Below are positions 26,663 through 43,080 of a stretch of DNA of 64,000 nt, piece by piece. Where the stretch lies: positions 62,001 to 126,000 of the forward strand of contig JAFTIQ010000034.1 of assembly GCA_017456805.1 (NCBI GenBank), in the 5' to 3' direction. The position numbers and the translations under genes were made by a program. The notes under the pieces were generated by a model. The model was not told the origin of the DNA. It saw only the letters and a program-made list of their open reading frames with translations, and did not search any database. This DNA is from Lentisphaeria bacterium (GTDB lineage: Bacteria > Verrucomicrobiota > Lentisphaeria > Victivallales > UBA1829). Numbering within the stretch: position 1 is the stretch's first letter; each line of letters starts with the position of its first letter.

Positions 26663-26812
26663 AATCCAGTATTGGAGTGGTTTCGTCATTTTAAAGAGAG
26701 ATGAAATTGACGGATCCGGCTCCGGTTTTATATAAGATTTGTATTACTGGCAAATCTGCAGAAAAAGAGTTTTGAATATTTTTAATATACCTCTAATGTA
26801 AAGGAGATGTAC

Positions 26813-29800: not shown

Positions 29801-30652
29801 CTGGGAGTCGGTGATTACAACGGCGACGGCAAAGACGGACTTCTCTGGCTTCAGACAGATACCGGTTCCGTTTATATGCAGGATGATGTCAGCAACTTTA
29901 ACACGATCACGGCGTTCCGTCTTGGAATTCTCGGCGAAGGTTATGATATCCGCGGTACAGGAGATTTCTCCGGCAGCGGAATCGACGGAGTTGTTATGAG
30001 AGGTCCTGAATTCGGAGATCCCTCTATTTCCGAAAACCACGGTCTGCTCGTCTGGGCACGGGATGATTACGGACACACCTTCAACGGCTGGCTTGGTGCA
30101 TTGGTCAACACCTGGAAACCCGGCGAAGCATTGAAGGGCGACACCTCTGATCTGGCAGCAGTCAATGCGAACAATTACAGATATGATATTGCCGGAGTTG
30201 GCGATTTCAACGGCGACGGTGTGGATGATGTTCTGATTCAGAACGTTATGCCGGAAACCGTGGATGGAGTTGAAATCACCGGATCCGGAGACGTGTTCAC
30301 CTTCCTGACCGGCGATGTGGAAGCAATCAAAGACGGTGCAGATCCGACGATCGCCTACACCGGCTGTGCTTCCGGCGATTGGAAGATCATCGGCGCAGCT
30401 GATTTCGACGGAGATGGAACAGATGATGTTCTTCTCAGCGATGGCAATGCGCTTGCTGCCTGGAAGATGGAAAACGGACAGCGCGTTGGCGATATGAACT
30501 TCGGAGCTCTTGAAGCCGGAACCGAATTTGTCGGTCTCGCAGATTGCAACTCTGACGGAACAAAGGATATCGTCCTGACCAATGCTGCGGATGAAAACTT
30601 CGCATGGCTGATCAAAGATGGAGCTGTGACGAGTGTTGCCGCACTTGCCTGA
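26813..30652 (+). CDS. Giant AIDA-repeat surface protein with FG-GAP-like C-terminus
   Basis: A 1279-residue protein. AAGGAG at 26801-26806 lies 6 bases before the ATG at 26813; the ATG at 26807 abuts the ribosome site and is less likely. Residues about 25-860 are AIDA-type repeats with two near-duplicate blocks, seen as ENGGFVAVEDGASVTF and ENGGFVAVEDGATVTF, each followed by SATAHSGTT. Then come a beta module (VIDFTVAEAAPTSDSGYL), a short Pro/Glu linker and an FG-GAP-like domain with GDYNGDGKDGLLW, GDFNGDGVDDVLIQN and ADFDGDGTDDVLL. The end reads FAWLIKDGAVTSVAALA. No signal peptide or barrel is visible. It is a paralogue of the two preceding proteins. Confidence 0.8.
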   Translation: MKGQSNSSTSTWSYVSSGVTSTGVTLGELDRMYIYSGGTANNTAVNAQGAIYMLGGTANGAKINSDGKLFLSSGYANSTTVNLGTMEVYSGTIADNTTVQGKQFEYGYVNIYSGASGNGLNVNAGGRADVAGNISGAVVNHDGVLTLSAGTIENLTVNSAGVVKASAAANISGAAVNSFGELALVNASAENLTVNSKGYVLVSSGANVAETTILGSMHVDAKGSVENAVISSGGSLRITSAGKVTGATVEKDGVLRVSSGANVTGLTVNDGDVYVSTGAAVQDANLNNGAVVNVYDSGTLKNAEVNANALIDVADGGIVSNATVNASGTLQVADGGSAFKVTLNESGILNLTSGAVINHLVLASGAAQHIEKGVTAQIVTVNADARLEAWEDSEVNYIIVNQAGDVSIASGASVTEVKENGGFVAVEDGASVTFVTNTIRDLGLAADSATAHSGTTVSGATLKDAGELHVFNGGVVKKAVLEANGTVAVYHGGTASDVTVKENGTLELASGASVNKLILESGAEQAFANGVTAQNVTVKADAKLEAWDKSVAQNVVVEQSGELTVASGASVTGIKENGGFVAVEDGATVTFAANTITGLELSNDSATAHSGTTISGATLKDASELFVYDGGVAKQTVVDSNGKVTVYKGGTANATVINSDGGLYVSEGGTAENTSVFYDGYLHIYDGGTAANTVVSRGSMHISEGGLASNTLMDYGCCMNVSNGGSAVETTVNSWCSMYIESGAQATDTNVNSMGSMFISNGGVASDVTVAQYGDLYVYGGGAVSEVGIQSTGKMIVAEGGTVKDSIVIGGSMYLGSGAVHSGNLQFTSDSVVSAAEGAVIDFTVAEAAPTSDSGYLVGRLDLIDGAPNYTITVAEDQEDGTYKLAAGADALADKVITVKTDAEVLGTISVGETLTTSDYNYTLNLDSGVLSFVVSEIPVVPEQPEPEPVTVTLTAAGNFTGKGGIFTLMSDNSYTVTTMDGTEISGTANVTGLELLGVGDYNGDGKDGLLWLQTDTGSVYMQDDVSNFNTITAFRLGILGEGYDIRGTGDFSGSGIDGVVMRGPEFGDPSISENHGLLVWARDDYGHTFNGWLGALVNTWKPGEALKGDTSDLAAVNANNYRYDIAGVGDFNGDGVDDVLIQNVMPETVDGVEITGSGDVFTFLTGDVEAIKDGADPTIAYTGCASGDWKIIGAADFDGDGTDDVLLSDGNALAAWKMENGQRVGDMNFGALEAGTEFVGLADCNSDGTKDIVLTNAADENFAWLIKDGAVTSVAALA

Positions 30653-31764: not shown

Positions 31765-31792
31765 TTGACAATGCGGGAATAATGTGTATATT
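31765..31792 (+). promoter_or_regulatory. Housekeeping-type promoter of the sigma factor / ESCRT-like cluster
   Basis: TTGACA (31765-31770), 16 bases ending GTG, TATATT (31787-31792): the best match to the general consensus in the window. Transcription would start near 31800, about 110 bases before the chosen sigma-factor start codon. Confidence 0.75.
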
Positions 31793-31909
31793 ATAAATAA
31801 GTCGAATTTCTTTCAGGGATTTTCCGGAAGGGAAATATTCTGGGAGAGTTTTTTTATTTTAGAAAACATCAAGGCTGAGCGCAGGAAGAATCCTGCATGG
31901 GATATTGAT

Positions 31910-32485
31910 ATGGAAGAGATGACACAGGAAGTCAGAGCTGAGCAGGAAAAGCTGATTGAAGAACTTTGGAACCGCTCCCCGGAAGCGTGGGATCTGATAG
32001 AAAAATATACGGTCAGGAGTTTCCTGAAAGAATCAGAGCATTACCGGAATATTGCGAATGACTTTCAGCTGGATTCCCTGACGATCCGCAACATGCTTAT
32101 GGTGATCATGCTTCAGGATCAGAAGCTCAAACTTTATGCCTACCGGGGCAGAGTTTCTTACTGGATGAAGAGTTACGTCAGAAAGATATTATCAGAATAT
32201 TGCAAAAAAAATGAATTAGGCGTGTCAGATGAGGAGTCTCAGGAAGTCTTTATAGAAAAAGACGATAATAGAGAAATCTGGGAAGTGGTGGAAGCCAGTT
32301 TCTCAAAACTCTGGAAGGAGAATCCTATGGAAGCCTATGTTTATCAATTGCGGATGTATCACAATTTGCCGGCAAAAGAAGTTGCTTCAAGCCTTGGAAT
32401 AACGAGCAGCAATGTGGATACGATATTCAAACGTGCGAAAGAAGATATGGCACTGTTTCTGCAGGAAATGGGAGGTGCGGCATGA
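31910..32485 (+). CDS. ECF-like RNA polymerase sigma factor
   Basis: About 191 residues from the ATG at 31910; a longer frame begins upstream of the expected transcription start and is unlikely. Region 2 is seen in WDLIEKYTVRSFL through KLYAYRGRVSYWMKSYVR, and region 4 in YVYQLRMYHNLPAKEVASSL with ITSSNVDTIFKRAKEDM, a normal sigma helix-turn-helix. The start is uncertain because no good ribosome site precedes 31910. The stop overlaps the next gene by four bases (ATGA), and that gene encodes a zinc-finger protein of anti-sigma type. Three identical non-housekeeping promoters (TGTCAG-N16-CGTCTA) in the downstream cluster are its likely targets; CGTC in the -10 is typical of ECF promoters. Confidence 0.85.
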   Translation: MEEMTQEVRAEQEKLIEELWNRSPEAWDLIEKYTVRSFLKESEHYRNIANDFQLDSLTIRNMLMVIMLQDQKLKLYAYRGRVSYWMKSYVRKILSEYCKKNELGVSDEESQEVFIEKDDNREIWEVVEASFSKLWKENPMEAYVYQLRMYHNLPAKEVASSLGITSSNVDTIFKRAKEDMALFLQEMGGAA

Positions 32486-33153
32486 CCTGTTATTCATTTG
32501 ATGCACTCGTCGAATTTGCAATGGATCCTTTGAAACCGGAACATGCGGAACTTGCAGCACATCTGCTTTCCTGCAAAGAATGCCGCAGAGAGTTCAACAT
32601 TGCGATGGGAACCGGGGAAAACGAAGAGGAAAATAAAGCGTTTTCTGCTGAATTCCAGGATCTTCTGAAGAAAAAAGAAGTTTGGACAAAATTCCATCAG
32701 TTTATTGACAATATTGCAGAAAAAATGCAGGGGGCGTTCGGGATGGTGAATCTTTCCCGGGTCATGCAGCCTCAAGCAAGTATGCTGTTCGCTGCGGCAT
32801 CTCCTTCAGCAAAACCTGCGTTTCAAACGAAATTCGGGGAAAAGCCTGCGATCACGTTTGAAGCAGAAACACCGAATTACTCAGATTATTACTGGAAGGC
32901 GCAGATGACCTTCCCCACCATGGTGTCCAGTCATGCGATGATCCAGATGCAGTTATCCGGAAAAGAAGGCAAGCCGCTCAACAATGGAACGCTGCTGTTT
33001 CTGGGAAAAGAGTTCAATATCATCGCAGGAGTCAGCACCATTCCGTTCAAAGAGTTTGTCAAGGAACGGAAAAGCAATTCCATCGGAGTCCGTTTCAATG
33101 ATGGATGCCAGACGGATGGAACGATCAAATTTTTACCGGAGTCATTTTCATGA
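32482..33153 (+). CDS. Putative anti-sigma factor with HxxxCxxC zinc finger
   Basis: A 223-residue soluble protein. Residues 27-34 read HLLSCKEC, the zinc-binding HxxxCxxC of zinc-finger anti-sigma (ZAS) proteins. The remainder has a helical segment (residues 60-85) and a C-terminal beta-rich region of unknown type (TFEAETPNYSDYYWKAQMTF and onward). Unlike most ZAS proteins it has no transmembrane segment, so it would act in the cytoplasm. The start overlaps the sigma gene and the stop overlaps the protease gene, each by ATGA, so the three are translationally coupled. Its signal is unknown. Confidence 0.75.
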   Translation: MTCYSFDALVEFAMDPLKPEHAELAAHLLSCKECRREFNIAMGTGENEEENKAFSAEFQDLLKKKEVWTKFHQFIDNIAEKMQGAFGMVNLSRVMQPQASMLFAAASPSAKPAFQTKFGEKPAITFEAETPNYSDYYWKAQMTFPTMVSSHAMIQMQLSGKEGKPLNNGTLLFLGKEFNIIAGVSTIPFKEFVKERKSNSIGVRFNDGCQTDGTIKFLPESFS

Positions 33154-34916
33154 GCATTTTTGAAGAAAAAACAGTGTTCCGGCTCTCCGGCTTCCCGCAA
33201 AAAGTTGATCAGGGAGAACGCGGCACCTGTGTTTCCTTCAGCATGATCGCACTTCTGGAATATTATCTTGGATTCAAAGAAAAACTCAGTCAGCAGTATC
33301 TTTACGCCTGCTGTCATCTGGATCAAACGGAGGAAGGGACAGCTCTTGAAACAGTCTTTTCCGCAGTCAAACAGTTTGGAGTGTGCCGCTATGCGGACTG
33401 GCCCTATAACCGGCATGGATCCGGGGATCAGGCGCAGCTGACAGACCGCGCGCTCTTGCAGAAAATTCCCACGATCAAATTTGACAATGTGGATTTCCAG
33501 CCTCTCAAAACGAATCCGCCACGGGGGATCGATGAGTATAAAAGTGTATTAAGCGGCGCAGATGGAAACCGCCCCTCCCCGATCGTTGTCGGATGCCAAA
33601 TGTTCGCATCCTCCGCCAGGAATCCCGGCTGGCTGACACTGCCGGTTTCCCCTTCGGAACAGCCCTCTGATTTGCATGCCATGCTTATTTACGGTTGGAA
33701 AGATACCCCGGGAATGGAATCAAAAGGATATTTCTTTGTACAGAACAGCTGGGGGAACAACAATGACCTGAAGATCCCCTTTGAATATATTGAACAGTTT
33801 GCCATGAGTGCCGGACGTTTTGCAGTTCCTGCGGAAGCTGCTCCGGAAGCGGAGGAATCTCAGGAAAAAACTCCGGCAGAAACGGTTGAGACAATGAGCG
33901 AAAAAAATCCCGGAACAAATATTGTTCCTTCCGATGTCACAGCGCATAAAGATAACTTTTTCACGTCGCAAAAGAAGAATATGCAGAACGGGAAATACCC
34001 CTACCCCGGGATCAAATTGCCGTATCCGCAGAAGTTGGGCGCATATTGGAACGTAAAGACCTCCTGCTTTGATCAGCCGGAAAATTTGCGGGATCCGATG
34101 GGTTTTTCCAATTTTCTCAAACGCAATGGGGTGACTCATCTTTATAATGAGGTGCGGATTTTCCGGATCCAGATCAAAACCAAATATTATTATCATCTGA
34201 TCTCAGCGTTTCTTTACCGGACTGACGGAAAACCGGTGGATGCCAATGATCTTGAACTTTTGAACCGTTATTACAAAGAAGATTATTGGGAAGCCTGCCG
34301 TTCCAAGCCGGGATATACGATTTTCACGGTCGGAACTTCCGGCAAATTTTCAGAAGAATGTACGGCTTCCTGCGATCCGGTGCGGTTCCTTTGTGAACCC
34401 GGAAATGATCCCGGAGTCTGGCTGTTCAAACTGCCGCAAGCAGAATGCGGCAACATCACGCAGGAGTTCTTTACTCATATTCTTCCCGGACAATATACGG
34501 AAGCGATCAGGAAGAAGCTGGAACGTTGGAACAGTTCTAATGTGATAAATAAGAAGTCCATCAAGGAATCTCTTGGAGCGTGCAGCGGAAGGGATCTTTA
34601 TGATAAGCATTTGAACACCGCGCTGGATGAACTTTTCTGTCACGGGAATTATGCCAAAAACAAGGAAGGAAATATCATTCCGCTCAGCTGGGGAACGCTT
34701 CCGAAAGGATATAAAAAAGCGAAACGGTATGCCAAAGCAACGGAACGGCAGATCGTCAGCTTGATTCTCTGGCTGATTGTTACTCTGCTTCTTGCGGCAA
34801 CGGCTTATGTCAAATTGCCGAAAGAGGTGGGATATCTCATTATTCTGATCTCTGCAATCGTGAATTACAAACGGAATCAGGCATTGCAGAGATTCAGGTT
34901 CGGAGATAGCAACTGA
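33150..34916 (+). CDS. Membrane-anchored papain-like (C1A) cysteine protease
   Basis: A 588-residue protein. The papain triad is visible: Gln21 and Cys27 in DQGERGTCVSF, His176 in SDLHAMLIYGW and Asn199 in FVQNSWGNN. Residues 220-270 are a Glu/Pro/Thr-rich linker, 275-535 an uncharacterised domain, and about 540-575 form two membrane helices (IVSLILWLIVTLLLAATAY; VGYLIILISAIV). With no signal peptide, the catalytic domain probably faces the cytoplasm. The ATG at 33150 has GGAG 8 bases upstream and overlaps the anti-sigma stop. Its place after sigma and anti-sigma suggests that it processes a protein of this system, perhaps the anti-sigma factor or the coiled-coil proteins; that is inference. 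Confidence 0.8.
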   Translation: MSIFEEKTVFRLSGFPQKVDQGERGTCVSFSMIALLEYYLGFKEKLSQQYLYACCHLDQTEEGTALETVFSAVKQFGVCRYADWPYNRHGSGDQAQLTDRALLQKIPTIKFDNVDFQPLKTNPPRGIDEYKSVLSGADGNRPSPIVVGCQMFASSARNPGWLTLPVSPSEQPSDLHAMLIYGWKDTPGMESKGYFFVQNSWGNNNDLKIPFEYIEQFAMSAGRFAVPAEAAPEAEESQEKTPAETVETMSEKNPGTNIVPSDVTAHKDNFFTSQKKNMQNGKYPYPGIKLPYPQKLGAYWNVKTSCFDQPENLRDPMGFSNFLKRNGVTHLYNEVRIFRIQIKTKYYYHLISAFLYRTDGKPVDANDLELLNRYYKEDYWEACRSKPGYTIFTVGTSGKFSEECTASCDPVRFLCEPGNDPGVWLFKLPQAECGNITQEFFTHILPGQYTEAIRKKLERWNSSNVINKKSIKESLGACSGRDLYDKHLNTALDELFCHGNYAKNKEGNIIPLSWGTLPKGYKKAKRYAKATERQIVSLILWLIVTLLLAATAYVKLPKEVGYLIILISAIVNYKRNQALQRFRFGDSN

Positions 34917-34934
34917 GGTAAATAAAAAACAGCT

Positions 34935-34962
34935 TGTCAGATTTCAGCAAAATAAACGTCTA
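34935..34962 (+). promoter_or_regulatory. Cluster-specific promoter copy 1 (TGTCAG-N16-CGTCTA)
   Basis: TGTCAG (34935-34940), 16 bases, CGTCTA (34957-34962), 67 bases before the first coiled-coil gene. The same hexamers with the same spacing recur at 36223 and 39950. The element lies within an ACAGCTTGT/ACAAGCTGT inverted repeat spanning the start region. Confidence 0.72.
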
Positions 34963-35028
34963 TTCTGTCAGAAAACGGAAAGATACAAGCTGTAAACAGA
35001 AATCATACAGAAGGAAAGGGAATAAAAA

Positions 35029-35625
35029 ATGGTTGTACCGGATTGGATCATAGCATTGCTTGTTAAACTGGGGTTGAAACAGACTCCGGAGCAGAAAATC
35101 GCCAAAGAAATTGCAAATTTGGAGGAAATGAAACGCCAACTCAATCAGGATTTGGACCTTCAAATTGACAAAATCAGAGATTTGGAAGCAGATCTGAAGC
35201 TGCAGAAAACAAAATATGAAGCTGCTCATGGTGCAGAAAAAAATATGCTGGCAGCAAAAATCAAACCGTTGATCCAGCAGTTGAATCAGATGAAGGAAAA
35301 GGAAGTTCAGCTCTCTCAGAAACTGAAAGATCTTACGCTTCTCATCCATAATAAGGGACTGATCCTTCAGGAAGCCAAAGCTCCTGATCTTGTCGATAAG
35401 CTGGAAGATGCAAGAGATGAAAAAAGAGATTTGCTTGATGAAGCAAAGGCGGAAGAAAAGGCTGCAGAAAAACTCAGCAATCTGACGTTGGAAAGCAAAC
35501 AGGAAGAACCGCTCTCTTTCGATACACTCTCCAGCACAGAAATGGATGACGATCTGCTCAAGGAGATGAATCAATATCTCTCTGACAGCAAAGAAGAGAA
35601 AAAAACAGAATCTGTTGAAGCATAA
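35029..35625 (+). CDS. ESCRT-III-like coiled-coil protein, type A copy 1
   Basis: A 198-residue, almost wholly helical protein. After a short hydrophobic N-terminus (WIIALLVKLGLK) come long amphipathic helices with a KYEAAHGAEKNML core at 62-74, AKIKPLIQQLNQMKEKE, further helices, and an acidic tail with DDDLLKEMNQYL. The basic hairpin followed by acidic C-terminal helices is the ESCRT-III (Snf7/CHMP) plan, and the size fits. It is closely related to the next gene and more distantly to the following two. PspA/Vipp1 are the known bacterial ESCRT-III relatives, but I do not see their sequence features. Proposed role: polymer-forming membrane remodeller handled by the AAA ATPases downstream. Confidence 0.6.
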   Translation: MVVPDWIIALLVKLGLKQTPEQKIAKEIANLEEMKRQLNQDLDLQIDKIRDLEADLKLQKTKYEAAHGAEKNMLAAKIKPLIQQLNQMKEKEVQLSQKLKDLTLLIHNKGLILQEAKAPDLVDKLEDARDEKRDLLDEAKAEEKAAEKLSNLTLESKQEEPLSFDTLSSTEMDDDLLKEMNQYLSDSKEEKKTESVEA

Positions 35626-35652
35626 ATAAATACGATTGAAAGGTGATATATC

Positions 35653-36222
35653 ATGAGACTTCTTGATTTTATTCAGGGAACAACTGAAATTGATAAACTG
35701 AGAGAAAAAATCACTCTCTGGCAGGGGGAAAATGCACAGCTTCAGCTGAGACTGGATTCCTTGATCGATCAGATCAGAGATTTGAAATCTGATCTTTCCC
35801 TTCTTCAGAAAAAATACGAAGCTGCACACGGCGCAGAGAAAAATATGCTGGGCGCAAAAATCAAACCTCTTCTCCAGGATCTGAAACTGATGGATGAAAA
35901 AGAGGTTCAGATTTCCGCAAAGATGAAGGATTATACCCTTCTGATCCATAACGCGGAAATGAGAATCACTCAGCTGAAAACAGAAGATATGCCGGATGAT
36001 ATCGAAGAAACCATCCTTGACAAGGAAGATCTCCTTGACAATATGGAGATGGAACGGAAGGCATCCGGAAAACTTTCTGATATGACCCTTCAGAGCAATT
36101 CCAACGACGATGTCGATGCCATGCTGAAAGATCTGGAAACCGAAAAAGAAGATCCGCTGATGGCTCAATTGAATGAAGTCCTCGGAGAAAATGAAAAAAA
36201 ATTGGATATGAATAACATTTAA
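35653..36222 (+). CDS. ESCRT-III-like coiled-coil protein, type A copy 2
   Basis: A 189-residue paralogue of the preceding protein: KYEAAHGAEKNML, AKIKPLLQDLKLMDEKEVQ and YTLLIHNAEM align directly with it. It begins MRLLDFIQGTTEIDKL, an amphipathic start as in ESCRT-III proteins that dip into membranes. The C-terminal third (DDIEETILDKEDLLDNMEME, then DDVDAMLKDLETEKEDPLM) is strongly acidic and spaced like the alpha-4/alpha-5 region of Snf7-type proteins. AAAGGTGA precedes the ATG, 27 bases after the neighbour. Assignment rests on pattern and gene context; no database search was possible. Confidence 0.6.
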   Translation: MRLLDFIQGTTEIDKLREKITLWQGENAQLQLRLDSLIDQIRDLKSDLSLLQKKYEAAHGAEKNMLGAKIKPLLQDLKLMDEKEVQISAKMKDYTLLIHNAEMRITQLKTEDMPDDIEETILDKEDLLDNMEMERKASGKLSDMTLQSNSNDDVDAMLKDLETEKEDPLMAQLNEVLGENEKKLDMNNI

Positions 36223-36250
36223 TGTCAGATTTGTTTCTGAAATGCGTCTA
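36223..36250 (+). promoter_or_regulatory. Cluster-specific promoter copy 2 (TGTCAG-N16-CGTCTA)
   Basis: TGTCAG (36223-36228) starts directly after the stop codon of the previous gene; 16 bases later CGTCTA (36245-36250). It drives the type B pair. TGTTTCTG and CAGAAACA flank the -10 as an inverted repeat. Confidence 0.72.
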
Positions 36251-36290
36251 CTGAGACAGAAACACAAAAATCCGACAGAAGGAGATAAAA

Positions 36291-36938
36291 ATGGGATTGT
36301 TTGATTTTTTTAAAACCAACGGAGAAATTGAACGCGAGTTGCGTAAGGCTCAGCGGAAGCAGCAGCACAGAGTTGAAAACGTGATCGATAATCTTGATGA
36401 CAAAGTCAAAGATTACGAAAAAGAACGGGATAAAATCTGGGAACAGGCAAAGATCAAGCTTCAGAGCGGACAGAAAGCGGAAGCAGCCCGGCTTCTCAAT
36501 ACATACAAATCCAAACAGACCTTGATCAATCAGACGGAACGGCGGAAACAGTATGCGGAGCGCACGCTGGATAAAATCAACAGTGCCAGAGATATGAAGG
36601 AATTGACAGATTCCCTCGGGAAACTGGCGACGATGAGCGATTTCTCTCCGGAACAGATGGAAGAAAATGTGGAAACCATCAACATGGCAACTGACGATAT
36701 CAATGATATGAGCAAAATCTTTGAAAAAGCCATGGAACGCGATATGGAACAACTCAACCGCGATATGGAACGGACAAATGGAACGGCGGAAGAAGATGAT
36801 CTGATGAAAGCGCTGGAAGCCGAAGTTTCCGGCTCCCTTCTCGGAGATAAAATCATGGAAAACACCAATATCATTCCTGAAAAACAGGAAATTGATGCAA
36901 ACACAAACGAAATCAGAAAACTTTTGGAAAATAATTAA
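36291..36938 (+). CDS. ESCRT-III-like coiled-coil protein, type B copy 1
   Basis: A 215-residue helical protein that resembles Snf7/CHMP4 most clearly of the four. It starts MGLFDFFKTNGEIE (CHMP4 proteins start MSLFG-type), has a basic helix hairpin (ERDKIWEQAKIKLQSGQKAE, then AARLLNTYKSKQTLINQTER) like ESCRT-III alpha-1/alpha-2, a middle helix SPEQMEENVETINMATDDIN comparable to alpha-4, and an acidic EEDDLMKALEAEV motif at 167-179 close in form to DEDELMAELEELE of CHMP4. The last residues, IDANTNEIRKLLENN, could be a MIT-interacting motif for the ATPase downstream. AAGGAG precedes the ATG. The call is inferred. Confidence 0.65.
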   Translation: MGLFDFFKTNGEIERELRKAQRKQQHRVENVIDNLDDKVKDYEKERDKIWEQAKIKLQSGQKAEAARLLNTYKSKQTLINQTERRKQYAERTLDKINSARDMKELTDSLGKLATMSDFSPEQMEENVETINMATDDINDMSKIFEKAMERDMEQLNRDMERTNGTAEEDDLMKALEAEVSGSLLGDKIMENTNIIPEKQEIDANTNEIRKLLENN

Positions 36939-36958
36939 CGGATTAAGGAGATACGAAA

Positions 36959-37618
36959 ATGGGATTTTTTGACAGTATTGGAAACCTTTTTGAATCAGAA
37001 AAAGATGCAGAAAGAAGAAAAAGAAAAGAAATCCGCCAGGTGGAACGCTCTGTGGAAAATGTGATCGAGAAATTTTCTGACAGAACCAGAGATCTGGAAA
37101 AAGAACGGGATGCTCTCTGGCAGAAAGCAAAAATCAAACTTCAGAGCGGACAGAAGGCTGAAGCTGCAAATCTCCTCAAGACCTATAAATCCAAAATGGT
37201 GATGCTCAACCGTCTTGACCGTCAGAAAGTCTATGCTCAGCATAAACTGGATATGATCTCAGGGGCAAGAGATATGGGCGAAGTCACAAGCGCACTCAAG
37301 GATCTTGCCGTGGGGCTGGATGTCACTCCGGAACAGCTGGAAGAAAACATCTTCGAAGTGGATATGGTCTCCGATGATATCAGCGATATCAACAAGATCA
37401 TGGATAAAGCTTATGACAAAGAAATGGATCATCTCAGCAAAGAAGCTGACCGTGAAATGTCTGCTGAATTCGATGACGATCTGATGAGTGCACTGGAAAA
37501 TGAAGTTGTGGGTTCTCTTGCCGGAAGCGAATCTGTCAAGACAACGGAAGCAAGTTCTGAACAGCAGGCAATTGATGCCGGTTTGAACAGATTGAGAAAA
37601 CTTGCCAGCGATAAATAA
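36959..37618 (+). CDS. ESCRT-III-like coiled-coil protein, type B copy 2
   Basis: A 219-residue paralogue of the preceding protein, starting MGFFDSIGNLFESEKDAERR. Shared blocks are LEKER, AKIKLQSGQKAEAA, LLKTYKSKM, GARDM, TPEQLEENI and the acidic FDDDLMSALENEVVGSL at 171-187. The C-terminus IDAGLNRLRKLASDK has Leu and basic residues spaced roughly like the MIM1 motif (LxxRLxxLK) that binds Vps4 MIT domains, though one residue shorter. It ends 17 bases before the MIT-AAA ATPase gene. Together the type B pair would be the best candidates for direct ATPase substrates. Confidence 0.65.
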   Translation: MGFFDSIGNLFESEKDAERRKRKEIRQVERSVENVIEKFSDRTRDLEKERDALWQKAKIKLQSGQKAEAANLLKTYKSKMVMLNRLDRQKVYAQHKLDMISGARDMGEVTSALKDLAVGLDVTPEQLEENIFEVDMVSDDISDINKIMDKAYDKEMDHLSKEADREMSAEFDDDLMSALENEVVGSLAGSESVKTTEASSEQQAIDAGLNRLRKLASDK

Positions 37619-37635
37619 TTCCGGGAGTCCCCTTT

Positions 37636-38766
37636 ATGAGTACTTTTAACTATCAGAAAAAACAGGAACATGAGCAGGCAGCAGCCGCGGCACTGAAGAA
37701 AAAAGATTTTTCGACAGCCTTTTTTCATACGACTCAGGCAGCGGAGTTCTGCTTCAAGCTTGCGCAGGAAATGCTTCAGCAGAGCCCCAGCATTGCTCAG
37801 GCATACATCAAAAATGGAAATGAACTGATCGATCTTGCAGAAGAGATCAAGGCAAAAGCCAAGAACAAGCCTCAGAAAGTTTCCGCTGAACAACAGGACA
37901 ACAAGGGCAATGCGGAAGATAAGATCAAATCGATCGAGCGCCCCAATGTCTGTCTGGATGATGTTGCCGGAATGGATGATGTAAAAGATCAGATCCGGCT
38001 CCGGATGCTGGAACCGCTGAAACGGCCGGAAGAAGCAAAGAAACACGGTTTGAGAACCGGCGGAGGGATCCTGCTCTACGGTCCTCCCGGAACAGGAAAA
38101 ACCTTTATTGCAAAGGCAGTTGCAGGAGAATTGAATCTGCCGTTCTTTGCTATTACTGCAGCAGATATTTTCGGAAAGTACGTCGGGGAATCTGAAAACA
38201 ACATCCGGGATATTTTTGCAAGTGCAAGAAAGCATCCGCTCTCTGTTCTCTTTATTGATGAACTGGAAACGATTTTCCGGAAGAGAGACTCCAATATCAA
38301 CGAAACAACTCAGAAAGTGATCTCAGTCCTCCTTCAGGAATTGGACGGTGTGGATTCAGAAAACAGCAATCCGATCCTTCTGCTTGGTGCGACCAATACG
38401 CCCTGGATGATCGATGAAGCATTCATGCGTACCAACCGTTTCGACGTGAGAGCTTACGTTGGGCTGCCTGACTATGATGCAAGAAAGAAGATCATTCAGA
38501 ACTCCCTGAAATCCGTGGAATATCCTGTGGAAGCAGAAGCTATCGAGTATCTTGCAAGAGAAACGGAAGGCTTCAGCGGAGCGGATATCACCGGGATCAT
38601 CGTGAGTGTCAAACAGGCTGCATTTGATAAAAAATGCACCAGCTACACCAAAGAACTTTTTGTGGAAGCCAGATCCAAAGCAATCTCCTCCTGCAATGCG
38701 GAACTCTCCCGGAAAATCGAAGAATGGGAAGAAAGTCTCGGAATTACAAGAGAAAAAAAAAAGTAA
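37636..38766 (+). CDS. Vps4-like AAA ATPase with MIT-like N-terminal domain
   Basis: A 376-residue meiotic-clade AAA protein. Residues 8-76 are three helices with MIT-like spacing (KDFSTAFFHTTQAAEFCFKLA, IKNGNELIDLAEEIKAK). The AAA domain (105-340) has Walker A GPPGTGKT at 149-156, pore loop KYVGESE at 181-187, Walker B LFIDE at 205-209 with the catalytic Glu, sensor 1 GATNTPWMID (Vps4 has GATNIPW), and Arg-finger candidates R265/R268. The final helix, IEEWEESLG, resembles the Vps4 C-terminal helix. It should disassemble ESCRT-III-like polymers. The gene ends GAA AAA AAA AAG TAA; the A AAA AAG heptamer could let ribosomes slip -1 into the next gene, giving a fused 767-residue double AAA protein. 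Confidence 0.85.
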   Translation: MSTFNYQKKQEHEQAAAAALKKKDFSTAFFHTTQAAEFCFKLAQEMLQQSPSIAQAYIKNGNELIDLAEEIKAKAKNKPQKVSAEQQDNKGNAEDKIKSIERPNVCLDDVAGMDDVKDQIRLRMLEPLKRPEEAKKHGLRTGGGILLYGPPGTGKTFIAKAVAGELNLPFFAITAADIFGKYVGESENNIRDIFASARKHPLSVLFIDELETIFRKRDSNINETTQKVISVLLQELDGVDSENSNPILLLGATNTPWMIDEAFMRTNRFDVRAYVGLPDYDARKKIIQNSLKSVEYPVEAEAIEYLARETEGFSGADITGIIVSVKQAAFDKKCTSYTKELFVEARSKAISSCNAELSRKIEEWEESLGITREKKK

Positions 38767-39938
38767 TTAATCCGGCAGAAGGGCCTGTTTTGAAACAGGA
38801 ACAGGCATCTTCTCCTGTTCAAACTGCGGTTTCAGCGCCTCCGGCATCTGCGCCGGAGCCTGCACCGCAGCCCTCTATTCCTGCTCCGGCACCGGCAGCA
38901 CCGCCCCCGCCGAAACCGGCTCCAAAGCCTGCCGGAAACAAGAACAAAATCACACTTTCCGACGTCAAGGGGTTGACAGATGCCAAAGAGATCGTCTTTG
39001 ATTCCCTGATCAATCCGGTTCTTTATCCGGAAGTTTACAGTACGCTCGGAGTGATTCCGGGAACCGGGCTTCTGCTTTACGGTCCCCCGGGAACGGGGAA
39101 AACCATGTTCGGAAGAGCCATTGCCAATGAGCTGAACACAGAATTTCTTTCGGTCACGCTTACGGAAATCAAAGGCAAAACGCCGCTTCAGACGGTTCAG
39201 ATGATCTCCAATCTTTTCACAAAAGCAAGAAGCTGTCCGAACGGCTGCGTCCTGTGTCTGGATGATTGTGAAGAGATTCTTTCCCGGCCGGGCAGTTCCA
39301 AGGCGTACGGGGTTTCCCAATTTCTGAATGAGCTTGACGGTTTGAAAAAGACCACCGGAAAGGGAAGAGTCTTTGTTCTGATCGCCACGAACCGCCCCTG
39401 GATGATTGATGGAGCGTTGCTCCGGAGCGGAAGGATCAGTGCCTCTGTTTATGTGGGGCTTCCGGAAGAAGAGACCAGAAAAGAGATCATTCTTTCTGCG
39501 CTTGAAGGAATTCTGATCAGCGAAGATGTTGATGTGGATAAACTTGCAGCAATCACAGAAGGATACAGCTGTGCAGAGATCTATCACGGTTTGAAAGGCG
39601 GTGGAATCTGCAATCTTGCCCGGACCTATGCTTCCCGCCGCTGGGTGGAACGGATCAAGAAAGATCCTGCCCAGAAAGAGATCGTGGAACCACTGGTCTG
39701 GCAGGACTTCGTCAATGCCATGAAAGAAGTCACGCCTGCGGCGGTCAGAGATGCGGAACGGATCAGCCAGATCAACAAATTCCGGGAAATGTTTTCTCTG
39801 CGGAAAGAGGAAGCGAAAGCCCAGGCGTCCGGAGAGGAAGAGGAGCTTTCCGATTCCCCTGAGTTCAACATCTCCGGTGCGGAATTCCATGCCGCTGAGG
39901 AAGATAATGATGAGGATGATCAGGATAAAAAGATTTAA
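38724..39938 (+). CDS. Second AAA ATPase with degenerate Walker B and pore loop
   Basis: About 404 residues if translation starts at ATG 38724, overlapping the first ATPase gene by 43 bases; that start lacks a good ribosome site, so expression by -1 frameshifting from the first gene is an attractive alternative. A Pro/Ala-rich linker (residues 30-70) precedes one AAA domain: Walker A GPPGTGKT at 120-127, Walker B CLDDCEE with Asp in place of the catalytic Glu (D181), sensor 1 IATNRPWMID, Arg-finger region LLRSGRISASVYVGLP. The aromatic pore loop is replaced by EIKGKTPLQ. A long acidic tail ends the protein. It may be a slow or regulatory subunit in a mixed ring with the first ATPase. Confidence 0.8.
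   Translation: MGRKSRNYKRKKKVINPAEGPVLKQEQASSPVQTAVSAPPASAPEPAPQPSIPAPAPAAPPPPKPAPKPAGNKNKITLSDVKGLTDAKEIVFDSLINPVLYPEVYSTLGVIPGTGLLLYGPPGTGKTMFGRAIANELNTEFLSVTLTEIKGKTPLQTVQMISNLFTKARSCPNGCVLCLDDCEEILSRPGSSKAYGVSQFLNELDGLKKTTGKGRVFVLIATNRPWMIDGALLRSGRISASVYVGLPEEETRKEIILSALEGILISEDVDVDKLAAITEGYSCAEIYHGLKGGGICNLARTYASRRWVERIKKDPAQKEIVEPLVWQDFVNAMKEVTPAAVRDAERISQINKFREMFSLRKEEAKAQASGEEEELSDSPEFNISGAEFHAAEEDNDEDDQDKKI
38757..38806 (+). promoter_or_regulatory. Candidate programmed -1 frameshift site (A AAA AAG plus hairpin)
   Basis: The heptamer A AAA AAG (38757-38763) is in the correct phase, immediately before the TAA stop (38764-38766) of the first ATPase, within a run of ten A. A -1 slip continues as GTA ATT AAT and enters the frame of the second ATPase without interruption. 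Downstream, GCCTGTT (38783-38789) can pair with AACAGGC (38800-38806), or CCTGTT with AACAGG more tightly. The distance from slip site to hairpin (about 19 bases) is longer than usual. E. coli dnaX uses the same heptamer. Confidence 0.6.
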
Positions 39939-39949
39939 AGTGGATTTGC

Positions 39950-39977
39950 TGTCAGAAACGGCATGAAAAAACGTCTA
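39950..39977 (+). promoter_or_regulatory. Cluster-specific promoter copy 3 (TGTCAG-N16-CGTCTA)
   Basis: TGTCAG (39950-39955), 16 bases, CGTCTA (39972-39977), 52 bases before the membrane protein gene. The downstream bases AAGCTGTAA also recur after copy 1. Confidence 0.72.
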
Positions 39978-40029
39978 TCTTCATAAAAGACGAAGCTGTA
40001 ACAGTAAATTCAAAACCAGGAGAAAGAAA

Positions 40030-40950
40030 ATGAGTGAAAAAACAGAAAGTTCCAAATCAATATTTGCAGCAGGCAGCGCATTACGGCTCTGGATATCCTT
40101 CCTCGGCGGGATTGCCTTGATCGGTTATCTGACCGTCACGCTCTGGATCAATCTGGGTTCAGCGAAACCTGTTCCTGATGACAAACGGCAGAGGATCGGA
40201 ATCAAGGCGGCAGAAAAAGTTGCCGAGGAGATCCGTCTGAACCGGAAAGAAATTTCGAGCGCGGTCATGGTTCATTTTGCCAATGACCCCACAGACTTCA
40301 TCTCTTATGAGATCCGGAACAAATTGAATTCATCCGGGATTTTGAATCTGGAGGATCTGCCGCTGATGGAAAAAATCCGGAATAAACTTCTGATGATCAA
40401 TGAAGGCTGCGGCAGCCGGGAAGAAGCGCTTGCGGCGGCAAAAGGTTCCAAAGCGGACGGCGTTCTCTGGGGAAAAGTGGAACGGTACGAATCCTCTAAT
40501 GCAGGAGTGATCCTTTCTGCGAGTTGGGAACTGGTCGATCTGAAATCCGGGGTTGTGATCTATTCCGGAAAGATCGAAGAGGACACCACAAAGAGTGTTG
40601 CCGGTCAGGTCAATCAGAAGCTGAATGAAATTCAGGATGGGCTTCAGCCGCTGGAAGAAGCAGCCAACGCATTCCCCTGGTATGTCCGTTTTCTGATCTT
40701 TGTCCTTGCAGTTCTTCTGCTGCCCATCTTTACGATCGGATTTCTGCGGGCGATGGTTATAAAACGTTCCAATGGCATCAACGCTTTTGTTCTTGGGATC
40801 TACACGCTGATCGGTGCGATTCTGGCATTCTTCATGGTCGGAGCGGCGTTTGCTTCCGGATGGAGTGTGGCTTTGTTCCTGATCGCAACAGTGCTTGCCT
40901 TCTTCTACAATGCATTTCTGATGAATTTTGCACTGAAACTGGAATCCTGA
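40030..40950 (+). CDS. Membrane protein with FlgO/CsgG-like soluble domain
   Basis: A 306-residue protein. One transmembrane helix at about residues 18-42 (LWISFLGGIALIGYLTVTLW), a soluble domain at 50-210, and three helices at about 218-300 (FLIFVLAVLLLPIFTIGFL and onward). In the soluble part, KGSKADGVLWGKVERYESSN followed by SWELVDLKSGVVIYSGKIEE recalls the CsgG/FlgO fold of envelope lipoproteins, but here it is membrane-anchored at both ends. It has its own copy of the cluster promoter and could be the membrane platform or sensor of the ESCRT-like system; this is inferred from position only. Confidence 0.6.
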   Translation: MSEKTESSKSIFAAGSALRLWISFLGGIALIGYLTVTLWINLGSAKPVPDDKRQRIGIKAAEKVAEEIRLNRKEISSAVMVHFANDPTDFISYEIRNKLNSSGILNLEDLPLMEKIRNKLLMINEGCGSREEALAAAKGSKADGVLWGKVERYESSNAGVILSASWELVDLKSGVVIYSGKIEEDTTKSVAGQVNQKLNEIQDGLQPLEEAANAFPWYVRFLIFVLAVLLLPIFTIGFLRAMVIKRSNGINAFVLGIYTLIGAILAFFMVGAAFASGWSVALFLIATVLAFFYNAFLMNFALKLES

Positions 40951-40963
40951 GGAGACGCAGGGG

Positions 40964-41257
40964 ATGTTTATCGCCGCAATTGTTCTGATTCTCTCTTTGC
41001 TCCTGATCAGCAAATGGCTGTTCTATCTGGTCATCGGAATTTTTACAGTCCTGCTGTTCTGTTATGATAAGTATGCGGCGAAGAAGCATCGGTGGAGAAT
41101 CCCGGAGCAGCAGCTTCTGCTTGCTTCGTTCGCGGGCGGAGCGCCCTTTGCGCTGATCACGATTTTTACGATCCGTCATAAATGCTCCAAACCCAAAATT
41201 TTCATCCCGGTGGCAATCTTCACCGGGATCCATCTTTTACTGTTGATCATAAGCTGA
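40964..41257 (+). CDS. DUF1294 small membrane protein
   Basis: A 97-residue protein with three hydrophobic segments. The signature CYDKYAAKKHRWRIPEQQLL, then LASFAGGAPFAL and IRHKCSKPKIF match DUF1294 (YDK..A....RIPE, GG, RHK). The function of the family is unknown. It follows the FlgO-like membrane protein by 13 bases and precedes the coiled-coil gene by 26, so it is part of the same transcript. GGAGACG precedes the ATG. Confidence 0.85.
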   Translation: MFIAAIVLILSLLLISKWLFYLVIGIFTVLLFCYDKYAAKKHRWRIPEQQLLLASFAGGAPFALITIFTIRHKCSKPKIFIPVAIFTGIHLLLLIIS

Positions 41258-41283
41258 AATATAAATCAGGAAAGGGAAAGCAA

Positions 41284-43017
41284 ATGATTTTCATTAAAAA
41301 AATTGAAACTGCATCCGATCTGGAAGCAGTCAAACAGTTCAATCCCAATGCAGAACAGCATATTTATGCACTGGTCAATGAACGGTCAAGCGGGATCTCT
41401 TATTTCAGACCGATGGTTCCCATGGATGAATCCGAACTGGAAAAGACCCTCTTTTTCTTTAAGAAATCCACAGAAACCGTCTGGAAGGGCGGATATTATA
41501 TTTCTCCTGCCGCCTTTGCATTGAATTTTGACGGGATCGTGCGGCATCAGGATTCCACCCGCCCGCTGCTGACCAATCTCGGAGTTCAGGTTCTCGGGAT
41601 CGAAGATAATCAGGATGCAACCGAGCTTCTCTCATGGCTCGCCGGTAAAACAGAACTCTCCACTGAAGATCTTGATGCGAAACTGACCGAACGGAAAAAA
41701 GCCTTTTTTGAATCCGTTGAAGCTCGTCTTTATTCAGCATCTGCTTCCGGTTCAGCCAGTGACCAGATCGCTCAGCTTGCCAGGGATTGTATGCTGAAAT
41801 TCTTCCCCTGGCTGAAAGTGGAAATCACTTTTGCAAAAACAGAAGAATATTTCTCCGAAGAGGAAAAAGCATTCAAGAAGCATTGCGAAGATAATGCTCT
41901 GGAACAGAAGAAGATGTATCAGGAGATCGAAGAAAAGCAAGCCGCCCTTGCTTACCGGCTCTCTCTGAAAGAAATGGAAGAAAACGAAAAAGATGCCCTT
42001 GCTTCCGCCAATCTCCGGGAACAGGATCGTCTTCTGGCGCTGGAACAGAAAGATATCGCAATGCGGGTCACAAAAGAAACCGCGGATGAGGAAATCCGGA
42101 AAGCAAAGGATAAGATCGAAGCGGAACGGAAAGAGATCTGGATGGCGTTGGATCAGAAGAAAAAACTTTTTGATCTGGATCTTGCCAAACAGGAAGAAGA
42201 ATCCCGCGTGACGGCTGCCCGCAATGAAGAAGAACTTCTGGCAGCCCGTAAAAATGTGGAACTTCTTGAGTTGCAGAAAACACAGGAAAATCTGAAATTG
42301 GAAGAATTGAAGGCTGAAATCGAATTCAATAAAAAATTCCGGGAAGAAAAATTGAAGTCTGAATCCGAAGGCAGATCATTCAATCAGGCTCTTTTCACGG
42401 AAATGAGAGCCGCCATCGATCAGCTCAAAACACAGCTGAACTCCTCCATGGAAGAAACCAGAACCCAAATGACGAATGTTCTTTTCGATACCAACACATG
42501 TAAGCTCAAGATCTCCAAGCTCATTGATTCCCAGCGGCACAGAATGAATCTCAACCTGAGCCGTGTTGCCGTTCAGGCAAACAATGCCCGGGGGATCATC
42601 GGTTCAAGAGATATCTGTCTGGGAGTGAATATTATCAAGGCTCCGGCAGAAATCAAATTCCGGTTCCGTTCTCCGATTTCCGGCTGGCTCACTCTTGTTT
42701 GTGCGGAATCCAACGGAAAAACCGTTTCTGTGCTTTCGCCCAACGCGATCGACCAGCAGGTCTGGGTGGATGCCGGAAGAGAATATTTCTATCCCTCTCC
42801 GGAATTGAGCAAATTGAATAATCTGATGCAGAACGGACCGGAAGGTGCGGAAAGCGTTTTTGCGATCGTAACGCCCGGAAAGCTGCTGGAAGCGCCTGTC
42901 AATACGGCAATCATCCAGATCCCGCCGGAAGAATTGAATTCCCTTCTCGGGAGTTTGAATGATCTTCCGGGCAACAGCTGGGCGGCAGGAAGTCTTTCCT
43001 ATTATGTAAAAGAGTAA
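41284..43017 (+). CDS. Long coiled-coil protein with C-terminal DUF4384-like domain
   Basis: A 577-residue protein, last of the cluster. Residues 1-200 form a globular region of unknown type, 200-410 a long charged coiled coil (KEMEENEKDALASANLREQD and onward), and 440-577 a beta-rich domain with GWLTLVCAESNGKTVSVLSP, DQQVWVDAGREYFYP and GAESVFAIVTP, the pattern of DUF4384, a domain linked to surface or stress proteins. It has no membrane segment. It could be a scaffold for the filament-forming proteins; no function is established. AGGAAAGG precedes the ATG, and a terminator follows 24 bases after the stop. Confidence 0.65.
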   Translation: MIFIKKIETASDLEAVKQFNPNAEQHIYALVNERSSGISYFRPMVPMDESELEKTLFFFKKSTETVWKGGYYISPAAFALNFDGIVRHQDSTRPLLTNLGVQVLGIEDNQDATELLSWLAGKTELSTEDLDAKLTERKKAFFESVEARLYSASASGSASDQIAQLARDCMLKFFPWLKVEITFAKTEEYFSEEEKAFKKHCEDNALEQKKMYQEIEEKQAALAYRLSLKEMEENEKDALASANLREQDRLLALEQKDIAMRVTKETADEEIRKAKDKIEAERKEIWMALDQKKKLFDLDLAKQEEESRVTAARNEEELLAARKNVELLELQKTQENLKLEELKAEIEFNKKFREEKLKSESEGRSFNQALFTEMRAAIDQLKTQLNSSMEETRTQMTNVLFDTNTCKLKISKLIDSQRHRMNLNLSRVAVQANNARGIIGSRDICLGVNIIKAPAEIKFRFRSPISGWLTLVCAESNGKTVSVLSPNAIDQQVWVDAGREYFYPSPELSKLNNLMQNGPEGAESVFAIVTPGKLLEAPVNTAIIQIPPEELNSLLGSLNDLPGNSWAAGSLSYYVKE

Positions 43018-43040
43018 GATCCCGTTTCCATAAGATCAGG

Positions 43041-43080
43041 CACGTCTGCAGGAACAGCTGCAGGCGTGTTTTTATTTTTT
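43041..43080 (+). terminator. Terminator of the ESCRT-like cluster
   Basis: CACGTCTGCAG (43041-43051), loop GAACAG, CTGCAGGCGTG (43058-43068), followed by TTTTTATTTTTT. It overlaps the end of the convergent DUF3089 gene. Confidence 0.9.

Follow-up and report, generated by a model that had tools for sequence, protein, structure and literature searches.

A run of twelve genes, all on the + strand between positions 31910 and 43017 of the window (the whole 64,000-nucleotide stretch analysed here: Lentisphaeria bacterium, assembly GCA_017456805.1, contig JAFTIQ010000034.1, positions 62,001-126,000 of the forward strand), includes two genes, cc3 and cc4, whose products belong to the ESCRT-III/Snf7 family by profile comparison, together with a gene for an AAA ATPase, AAA1. 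We consider it probable that cc3 and cc4 are a bacterial ESCRT-III pair with AAA1 as their dedicated ATPase, whose MIT-like N-domain likely binds subunit tails, and that unfolding or extraction of the subunits would drive membrane remodelling. This function of the cluster is one that we infer, and the arrangement of helices in cc4 and the three helices of the AAA1 N-domain are predictions. An earlier examination of the letters alone (the sequence-only reading) had placed these genes at the same positions and on the same strand, and left the second AAA protein of the run, AAA2, unnamed.

Family membership of cc3 and cc4 was assessed with profiles of their relatives. A profile of 11 relatives, compared with all PDB sequences, gave six matches at E <= 10, every one of them to ESCRT-III and the best at 1e-4. 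With 28 relatives the profile returned ten matches, including four Snf7 proteins at 8.5e-8 to 3.1e-7 and two ESCRT-III proteins of Asgard archaea (3.8e-6 and 2.4e-4), as well as a designed protein at 0.23 and a ligand-binding protein at 0.25. The Pfam Snf7 model (PF03357) was matched at E <= 5 by 25 of the 28 relatives (best 8.7e-9). When 16 whole genomes were searched with it, the curated cut-off was cleared by five sibling genes in four genomes (G187, G149, G188 and, twice, G001) and in none of 14 control genomes, nine of which had matches below the cut-off. Furthermore, at least two relatives, one from Kiritimatiellae, are labelled ‘Snf7 family protein’ in GenBank among the 120 of 225 matches listed. 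A basic N-terminal half and an acidic C-terminal part are present in all 28 relatives.

In the window, basic hairpins and acidic tails had been ascribed to four coiled-coil proteins; in all four the first 110 residues are net positive and the rest net negative (cc1 +3/-14, cc2 +1/-17, cc3 +5/-16, cc4 +6/-17). The segment EEDDLMKALEAEV occurs only in cc3, and FDDDLMSALENEV only in cc4. The same reading had regarded all four proteins as ESCRT-III-like, which holds for cc3 and cc4 (profile match to Snf7 at 8.5e-8) but not for cc1 and cc2. These two form a family of their own, for which no relation to ESCRT-III was detected: their profile search of PDB returned no ESCRT-III match, and comparison of the cc1/cc2 and cc3/cc4 profiles gave a probability of 12% over 46 columns.

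The AlphaFold2 model of cc4 (predicted local distance difference test score, pLDDT, 71) has helices at residues 4-8, 14-62, 66-119, 124-166, 169-191 and 200-218. With moderate confidence, it fits the ESCRT-III plan of a long alpha1-alpha2 hairpin followed by shorter helices. A Foldseek search with this model placed Snf7, CHMP or Asgard ESCRT-III at each of ranks 1-10, PspA appearing first at rank 11. The C-terminal tails were inspected for R[LVI]xx[LIM], the core consensus of MIM1 being RLxxL. This motif was found within the last 24 residues of 13 of the 28 relatives, with typical tails such as GQERVRNLL and GLNRLRKL. It is present in eight of 23 non-redundant tails; 2000 shuffles averaged 0.78 and never exceeded 5. 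In addition, the motif is carried by 112 of 115 further relatives, all close kin; in internal windows of these proteins its frequency is 8.9%.

In the model of AAA1, residues 1-76 form three predicted helices (2-21, 25-46 and 51-76; block confidences 79-94 for residues 1-70), in agreement with the three-helix N-terminus proposed earlier for an ATPase with a KYVGESE pore loop and GATNTPW; both motifs are located in AAA1. Compared with a profile of 79 Vps4 MIT domains and one further fragment, the N-domain gave a weak match, collinear from end to end, with a score of 14.0, whereas 30 shuffled profiles scored no higher than 8.4 and the reversed one 8.2. We call the domain MIT-like because sequence searches fail, as described below, while three MIT-sized helices and a weak collinear match exist. 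The predicted helices, this profile match and the co-occurrence with ESCRT-III together make the case for a domain of MIT type.

Carriers of the N-domain comprise AAA1, fusions of AAA1 with AAA2 (loci L001, L038 and L040) and an AAA2-type motor (L041, E 6.8e-29). As a further case, a SpoVK/CbbX-type AAA protein (L047:10331-11494; TIGR02881 301 bits, cut-off 423) bears the N-domain (E 5.8e-7) and adjoins an ESCRT-III gene. Throughout the fetched loci and the window, the N-domain profile matched 20 of 2125 open reading frames, all of them AAA proteins of ESCRT-III loci; 16 of these are rows of the profile itself, two (L003 and L004) nearly duplicate L002, and the new ones, of L041 and L047, are the most informative. 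By sequence, the constant partner of ESCRT-III thus seems to be the N-domain while the motor varies, as would be expected of an adaptor. The ESCRT-III proteins of L044, L046 and L047 stop before the C-terminal helix, and their neighbours have the three lowest-scoring N-domains. It looks as if tail and N-domain were decaying together, in three cases only.

Pairing of the two genes was surveyed in 387 genomes of the phylum, from which genomes were chosen by the 11-row cc3/cc4 profile alone (rows from the window, L001-L004 and four database proteins). This profile matched 17 genomes, two weak ones were dropped, and the 28-row profile returned the same 15 and no others. When the neighbourhoods of the ESCRT-III genes were searched with an AAA1 profile made of the window, L001 and L002 only, each of the 15 genomes, of which 14 were new, gave an AAA gene; the weakest match was in L047 (E 1.5e-11). 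The ESCRT-III gene and the gene for the N-domain AAA protein lie on one strand and within 3.6 kb in each of the 15. No gene separates the pair in 11 genomes (G001, G069, G089, G149, G150, G187, G196, G203, G260, G266 and G277), one or two genes do so in G017, G188 and G235, and a gap of 3.6 kb is found in G200. The pair proposed from the window recurs, with both genes together in 15 of 387 genomes. A 75-residue N-domain profile retrieved exactly these 15 genomes and had no match in the remaining 372; as judged by these profiles, the N-domain is found only where ESCRT-III genes are in the genomes searched.

With regard to its motor, AAA1 is by its sequence a complete classical AAA protein, with Pfam matches to the full-length AAA domain and to the lid. 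Its best NCBIfam scores are to FtsH (196 bits), CDC48 (194), PAN (178) and CdvC (177.5), none of them near the cut-off. A tree was constructed from 31 AAA domains, with no archaeal CdvC, two reference rows entered by hand and long branches flagged. In it the AAA1 family, the tandem protein of L005 and one protein of L012 make up a separate lineage, Vps4, katanin and spastin have a branch of their own (support 100/97), and AAA1 stands beside that branch, against p97 and FtsH, at only 85/77. Constraining AAA1 with FtsH, with p97 D2 or with both p97 domains gave approximately unbiased (AU) p values of 0.042, 0.047 and 0.040, respectively. FtsH was rejected as an identity of AAA1 on the first of these values and on the absence of Peptidase_M41 among the 25 of 30 Pfam matches listed for the 376-residue protein.

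Several results weigh against the proposed reading. The 28-row profile also matches two TPR-like chains over ~34 residues (1.9e-6 and 5.4e-4), about level with Asgard ESCRT-III, and cc3 and cc4 taken alone remain under the Snf7 cut-off (9.8 and 13.2 bits vs 27.3). The Foldseek search with the model of cc4 gave nothing at E <= 0.001, the predicted template modelling score of that model is 0.47, and a second structure aligner puts a sorting-nexin chain at the top. The tail motif is absent from 15 of the 28 relatives, cc3 among them. For the N-domain of AAA1, MIT was found neither by Pfam nor by PDB sequence search, a whole-genome search with the MIT model gave no listed match at any AAA1 N-domain, and the comparison with the MIT profile has a probability of only 1.9%; what stands of the MIT-like N-terminus claimed earlier is the three MIT-sized predicted helices, with the weak collinear match and the co-occurrence with ESCRT-III, not an MIT domain recognizable in these sequence searches. 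In the survey, 13 of the 15 N-domain genomes match by construction because they supplied rows of the profile, so that the information lies in the 372 genomes without a match and in G187 and G089, which had been held out. These genomes also share ancestry, and the counts do not represent independent events. Finally, a tree in which AAA1 is constrained with Vps4 alone is rejected (AU p 0.00015).

Vps4 orthology of AAA1 was accordingly discarded, as the protein falls outside the Vps4/katanin/spastin clade in both test and tree, the latter built without archaeal CdvC. The Vps4-like ATPase of the sequence-only reading survives as a domain that is no FtsH, not as a member of that clade: judging from sequence and tree, AAA1 is Vps4-like in plan and no Vps4.

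AAA2 of the window has KGKTPLQTVQ where the KYVGESE pore loop is expected, and DD in Walker B; its relative in L041 retains KSKYVGESE. The window protein is likely a regulatory or inactive ring module. The tandem AAA protein of L005 (L005:2430-4757, 775 residues) has both domains among the AAA1 family in the tree and an N-terminal part of ~225 residues; an ESCRT-III gene was not found in the fetched stretch around it.

Among other explanations, the one that survives best, although we consider it unlikely, is a quality-control or protease system, in which the AAA ring unfolds clients on coiled-coil scaffolds and feeds them to a papain-like (or trypsin-like or caspase-like) protease, with no membrane scission. 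A papain-like protease is indeed encoded in the operon, a caspase-family gene lies by the set in L043 and a trypsin-like gene near that of L048, and the AAA domain scores about equally with Cdc48, FtsH, proteasome-activating ATPases and CdvC. However, the protease domain is unmatched in L002-L004, which retain the ESCRT-III and AAA1 genes, and the protease fold varies between loci. Moreover, the ESCRT-III homology and the pairing of N-domain with ESCRT-III predict cc3 and cc4 themselves as the clients.

Marginally less credible still is a PspA/Vipp1-like role, that is, a passive coat that stabilises the membrane under stress, with the AAA protein regulating only transcription or turnover. The superfamily shared by PspA and ESCRT-III (in the cited part of PMC8281802), the sigma/anti-sigma control of the window cluster and a weak match of the cc3/cc4 profile in G256, which is a PspA gene, are in line with such a role. 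PspA (PF04012) over the cut-off is missing from all 15 genomes, as it is from the 16 genomes searched, where a single match below the cut-off was found in G002. This absence is uninformative because PspA exceeds the cut-off in only 38 of the 387 genomes, and absence from 15 would be expected about one time in five. Against the coat stand the Snf7 matches of the relatives: neither cc3 nor cc4 has PspA_IM30 among its Pfam matches, and it is likewise missing from the 25 most frequent of the 121 Pfam families matched by the 28 relatives. The Foldseek order, with eukaryotic or Asgard ESCRT-III ahead of PspA, and the nearby AAA motor with its special N-domain in 15 of 15 genomes point the same way.

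A division machine in place of FtsZ, like Cdv in some archaea, is very improbable: Cdv division is the closest prokaryotic functional parallel of ESCRT-III with Vps4 (PMC10936438, cited part), and no FtsZ match in these genomes exceeds the NCBI cut-off (none at all in G196), but the system is not obviously a substitute because a divergent FtsZ-family match occurs in 15 of 16 set-carrying genomes (covering most of the model in 13, part of it in G002 and G200), and it is confined to 15 of the 387 genomes and has its own sigma factor in the window.

The ESCRT-III pair and AAA1 are part of the larger cluster listed in Table 1. The existence and conservation of this cluster are confirmed. In L001 (Lentisphaeria, roe deer caecum) the gene order of the window is kept, including the sigma/anti-sigma pair, the membrane-anchored protease and the LpoB/FlgO-like membrane protein that the sequence-only reading had grouped together, and AAA1 and AAA2 constitute one 1006-residue frame. 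A shorter version is present in L002 and L003 (both Victivallales, water buffalo) and L004 (uncultured bacterium). The cluster is more than a chance arrangement because its order recurs in L001 and its shorter version in L002-L004. These last three loci retain the C-terminal part of the protease (about 268-561, the only part matched), one cc1-type gene, one cc3/4-type gene, AAA1 and, divergently oriented, the LpoB-like gene; a ccX-like gene is also found in L002 and L004. Promoter-like sites of the kind found upstream number 16 in the region, compared with a shuffled mean of 11.6, so the site listed is suggestive only as the cluster promoter.

Table 1. Features of the ESCRT-III/AAA cluster and its borders, in window coordinates
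Feature	Position	Strand	Basis
Promoter-like site, sigma-70-type, TTGACA-18 nt-TATTAT	31765..31794	+	11/12 consensus positions; 5' of cluster
ECF-type sigma factor	31910..32485	+	Sigma70_r4_2 25.6 bits vs cut-off 25.7; TIGR02937 E 7.4e-8, below cut-off; L001 orthologue
Probable zinc-finger anti-sigma protein	32482..33153	+	zf-HC2 weak, E 0.12; antisigmaE E 0.015; overlap with sigma gene; L001 orthologue
Papain-like cysteine protease, C-terminal hydrophobic segments	33150..34916	+	Peptidase_C1 36.2 bits vs cut-off 20.7; hydrophobic stretch read from sequence
cc1, coiled-coil, second family (CCA), hydrophobic N-terminus	35029..35625	+	No ESCRT-III match in PDB profile search
cc2, paralogue of cc1	35653..36222	+	
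cc3, ESCRT-III/Snf7 family protein	36291..36938	+	Family profile vs PDB Snf7 E 8.5e-8; alone Snf7 E 0.79
cc4, ESCRT-III/Snf7 family, MIM1-like C-terminal tail	36959..37618	+	Alone Snf7 E 0.072; family profile; AlphaFold2 model; Foldseek
AAA1, AAA ATPase with KYVGESE pore loop and GATNTPW; MIT-like N-domain at residues 1-76, helix at the C-terminus	37636..38766	+	Pfam AAA 140 bits; model pLDDT 82; N-domain profile
AAA2, second AAA module	38754..39938	+	Pfam AAA 97 bits; fused to AAA1 in L001
LpoB/FlgO-like membrane protein; hydrophobic segments flank a probable periplasmic domain	40030..40950	+	Pfam LpoB E 0.0042, 17.4 bits vs cut-off 22.3; kept in L001-L004
DUF1294 small protein	40964..41257	+	Pfam DUF1294 63.7 bits; present in L001
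ccX, coiled-coil with DUF4384	41296..43017	+	DUF4384 34.1 bits vs cut-off 27; relatives in L001, L002, L004
Terminator-like hairpin	43038-43071		3' of cluster

Two kinds of gene setting were observed. Type A (window, L001, L038, L040, L041 and L051) is characterized by a sigma factor and a match to the profile of the papain-like protein, with an anti-sigma match in every locus except L038. Type B, for which selected neighbours only were scanned, has genes for an SPFH protein with a zinc ribbon and for an FHA protein. In L044 and L046 these are immediate neighbours, and in L045 and L048 they lie at a distance of 3.5-5.6 kb. L044 narrowly misses the FHA cut-off (20.5 vs 20.7), and in L050 there is an FHA match below the cut-off only, about 6 kb off. 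In L044, a Ser/Thr kinase gene is located between the ESCRT-III and AAA genes. The cc1/cc2 family, with its hydrophobic start and acidic end, was matched in L001-L004, L038, L040, L041, L043 and L051, and is possibly a diverged polymer subunit. The caspase-family (Peptidase_C14) gene of L043, at L043:13560-15017, adjoins the ESCRT-III/AAA1 set; the trypsin-like gene of L048 is near its set.

Outside the cluster, the window holds at 26807-30652 (+) a gene for a 1281-residue repeat protein which, by eye only, resembles a passenger of AIDA/autotransporter type whose C-terminal region is FG-GAP-like. The long antisense open frame within it, at 27374-29128, is probably spurious.

Under the ESCRT-III/AAA reading, cc3 and cc4 would polymerise at the cytoplasmic face of the inner membrane by way of their amphipathic starts, and a ring of AAA1, with AAA2, would dock on the RLxxL-type tail and thread cc3/cc4 subunits into its pore. 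The proteins cc1 and cc2, the membrane-anchored protease and the LpoB-like protein may place or trigger the polymer, and the sigma/anti-sigma pair may turn the set on under envelope stress. Our best guess for its job, because of the sigma control and the membrane partners, is stress-controlled repair or vesiculation of the inner membrane. We lean, with less assurance than for the pair itself, towards a wider proposal: a working bacterial machine of ESCRT-III/Vps4 type, whose inner-membrane polymers would be recycled by AAA rings through an MIT-like domain that reads MIM1-like tails. That domain would have been swapped between unrelated motors (Cdc48-like, tandem and SpoVK/CbbX-like), so that the adaptor, not the motor, would define the system.

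If this is true, bacteria too, in some members of the Lentisphaera/Kiritimatiella group, would use a type of membrane machine described chiefly in archaea and eukaryotes, and would offer small, tractable systems for motor-driven recycling of an ESCRT-III polymer. Light would also be shed on the order of assembly of polymer, adaptor and motor in the time before eukaryotes. An adaptor exchanged between motors permits a direct test of which part sets substrate choice.

Among known systems, PspA/Vipp1 (PF04012) share with cc3 and cc4 the superfamily, the helical plan and a link to stress; in contrast to them, the relatives of cc3 and cc4 match Snf7 and not PspA_IM30, and we know of no MIT-like AAA partner of PspA or Vipp1. 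The eukaryotic and Asgard ESCRT-III/Vps4 system resembles the present one in its Snf7-family subunits, its AAA ATPase with a predicted three-helix N-domain and, less surely, the RLxxL-type tail of many subunits. It differs in that the host here is a bacterium, the AAA domain lies outside the Vps4/katanin/spastin clade, other motors (L041, L047) carry the N-domain, and a sigma factor and a protease stand in the operon. As in archaea, ESCRT-III and AAA genes are side by side here too. Archaeal ESCRT loci hold genes for a kinase, FHA and SPFH-zinc-ribbon proteins, according to the part of PMC10936438 cited, to which the SPFH and FHA genes near the pair in L044-L046 and L048 and the kinase gene of L044 correspond.

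The earlier statement that no described bacterial system with this set was known stands only in part. A 2024 survey (PMC11237479, as far as its cited parts go) reports that in some bacteria AAA+ genes neighbour those for Snf7/PspA-clade proteins; it also reports bacterial Snf7 homologues with a transmembrane segment and other operon partners, and transfers of VPS4-like AAA proteins in bacteria where an unrelated gene has taken the place of snf7. By a term search of its main text, supplementary tables aside, Lentisphaerota, Kiritimatiellota, Verrucomicrobia, Opitutus and Planctomycetes are not named. The open-licence literature searched yielded no description of an ESCRT-III and AAA pair with a shared MIT-like adaptor. 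The present system has in common with the cases of PMC11237479 the general idea of an AAA motor working with a PspA/Snf7-clade protein in bacteria. This idea is not wholly new because the cited parts of that survey already report bacterial Snf7-clade genes near AAA+ genes; new here, set against those parts, is this particular ESCRT-III/AAA pair with its shared MIT-like adaptor.

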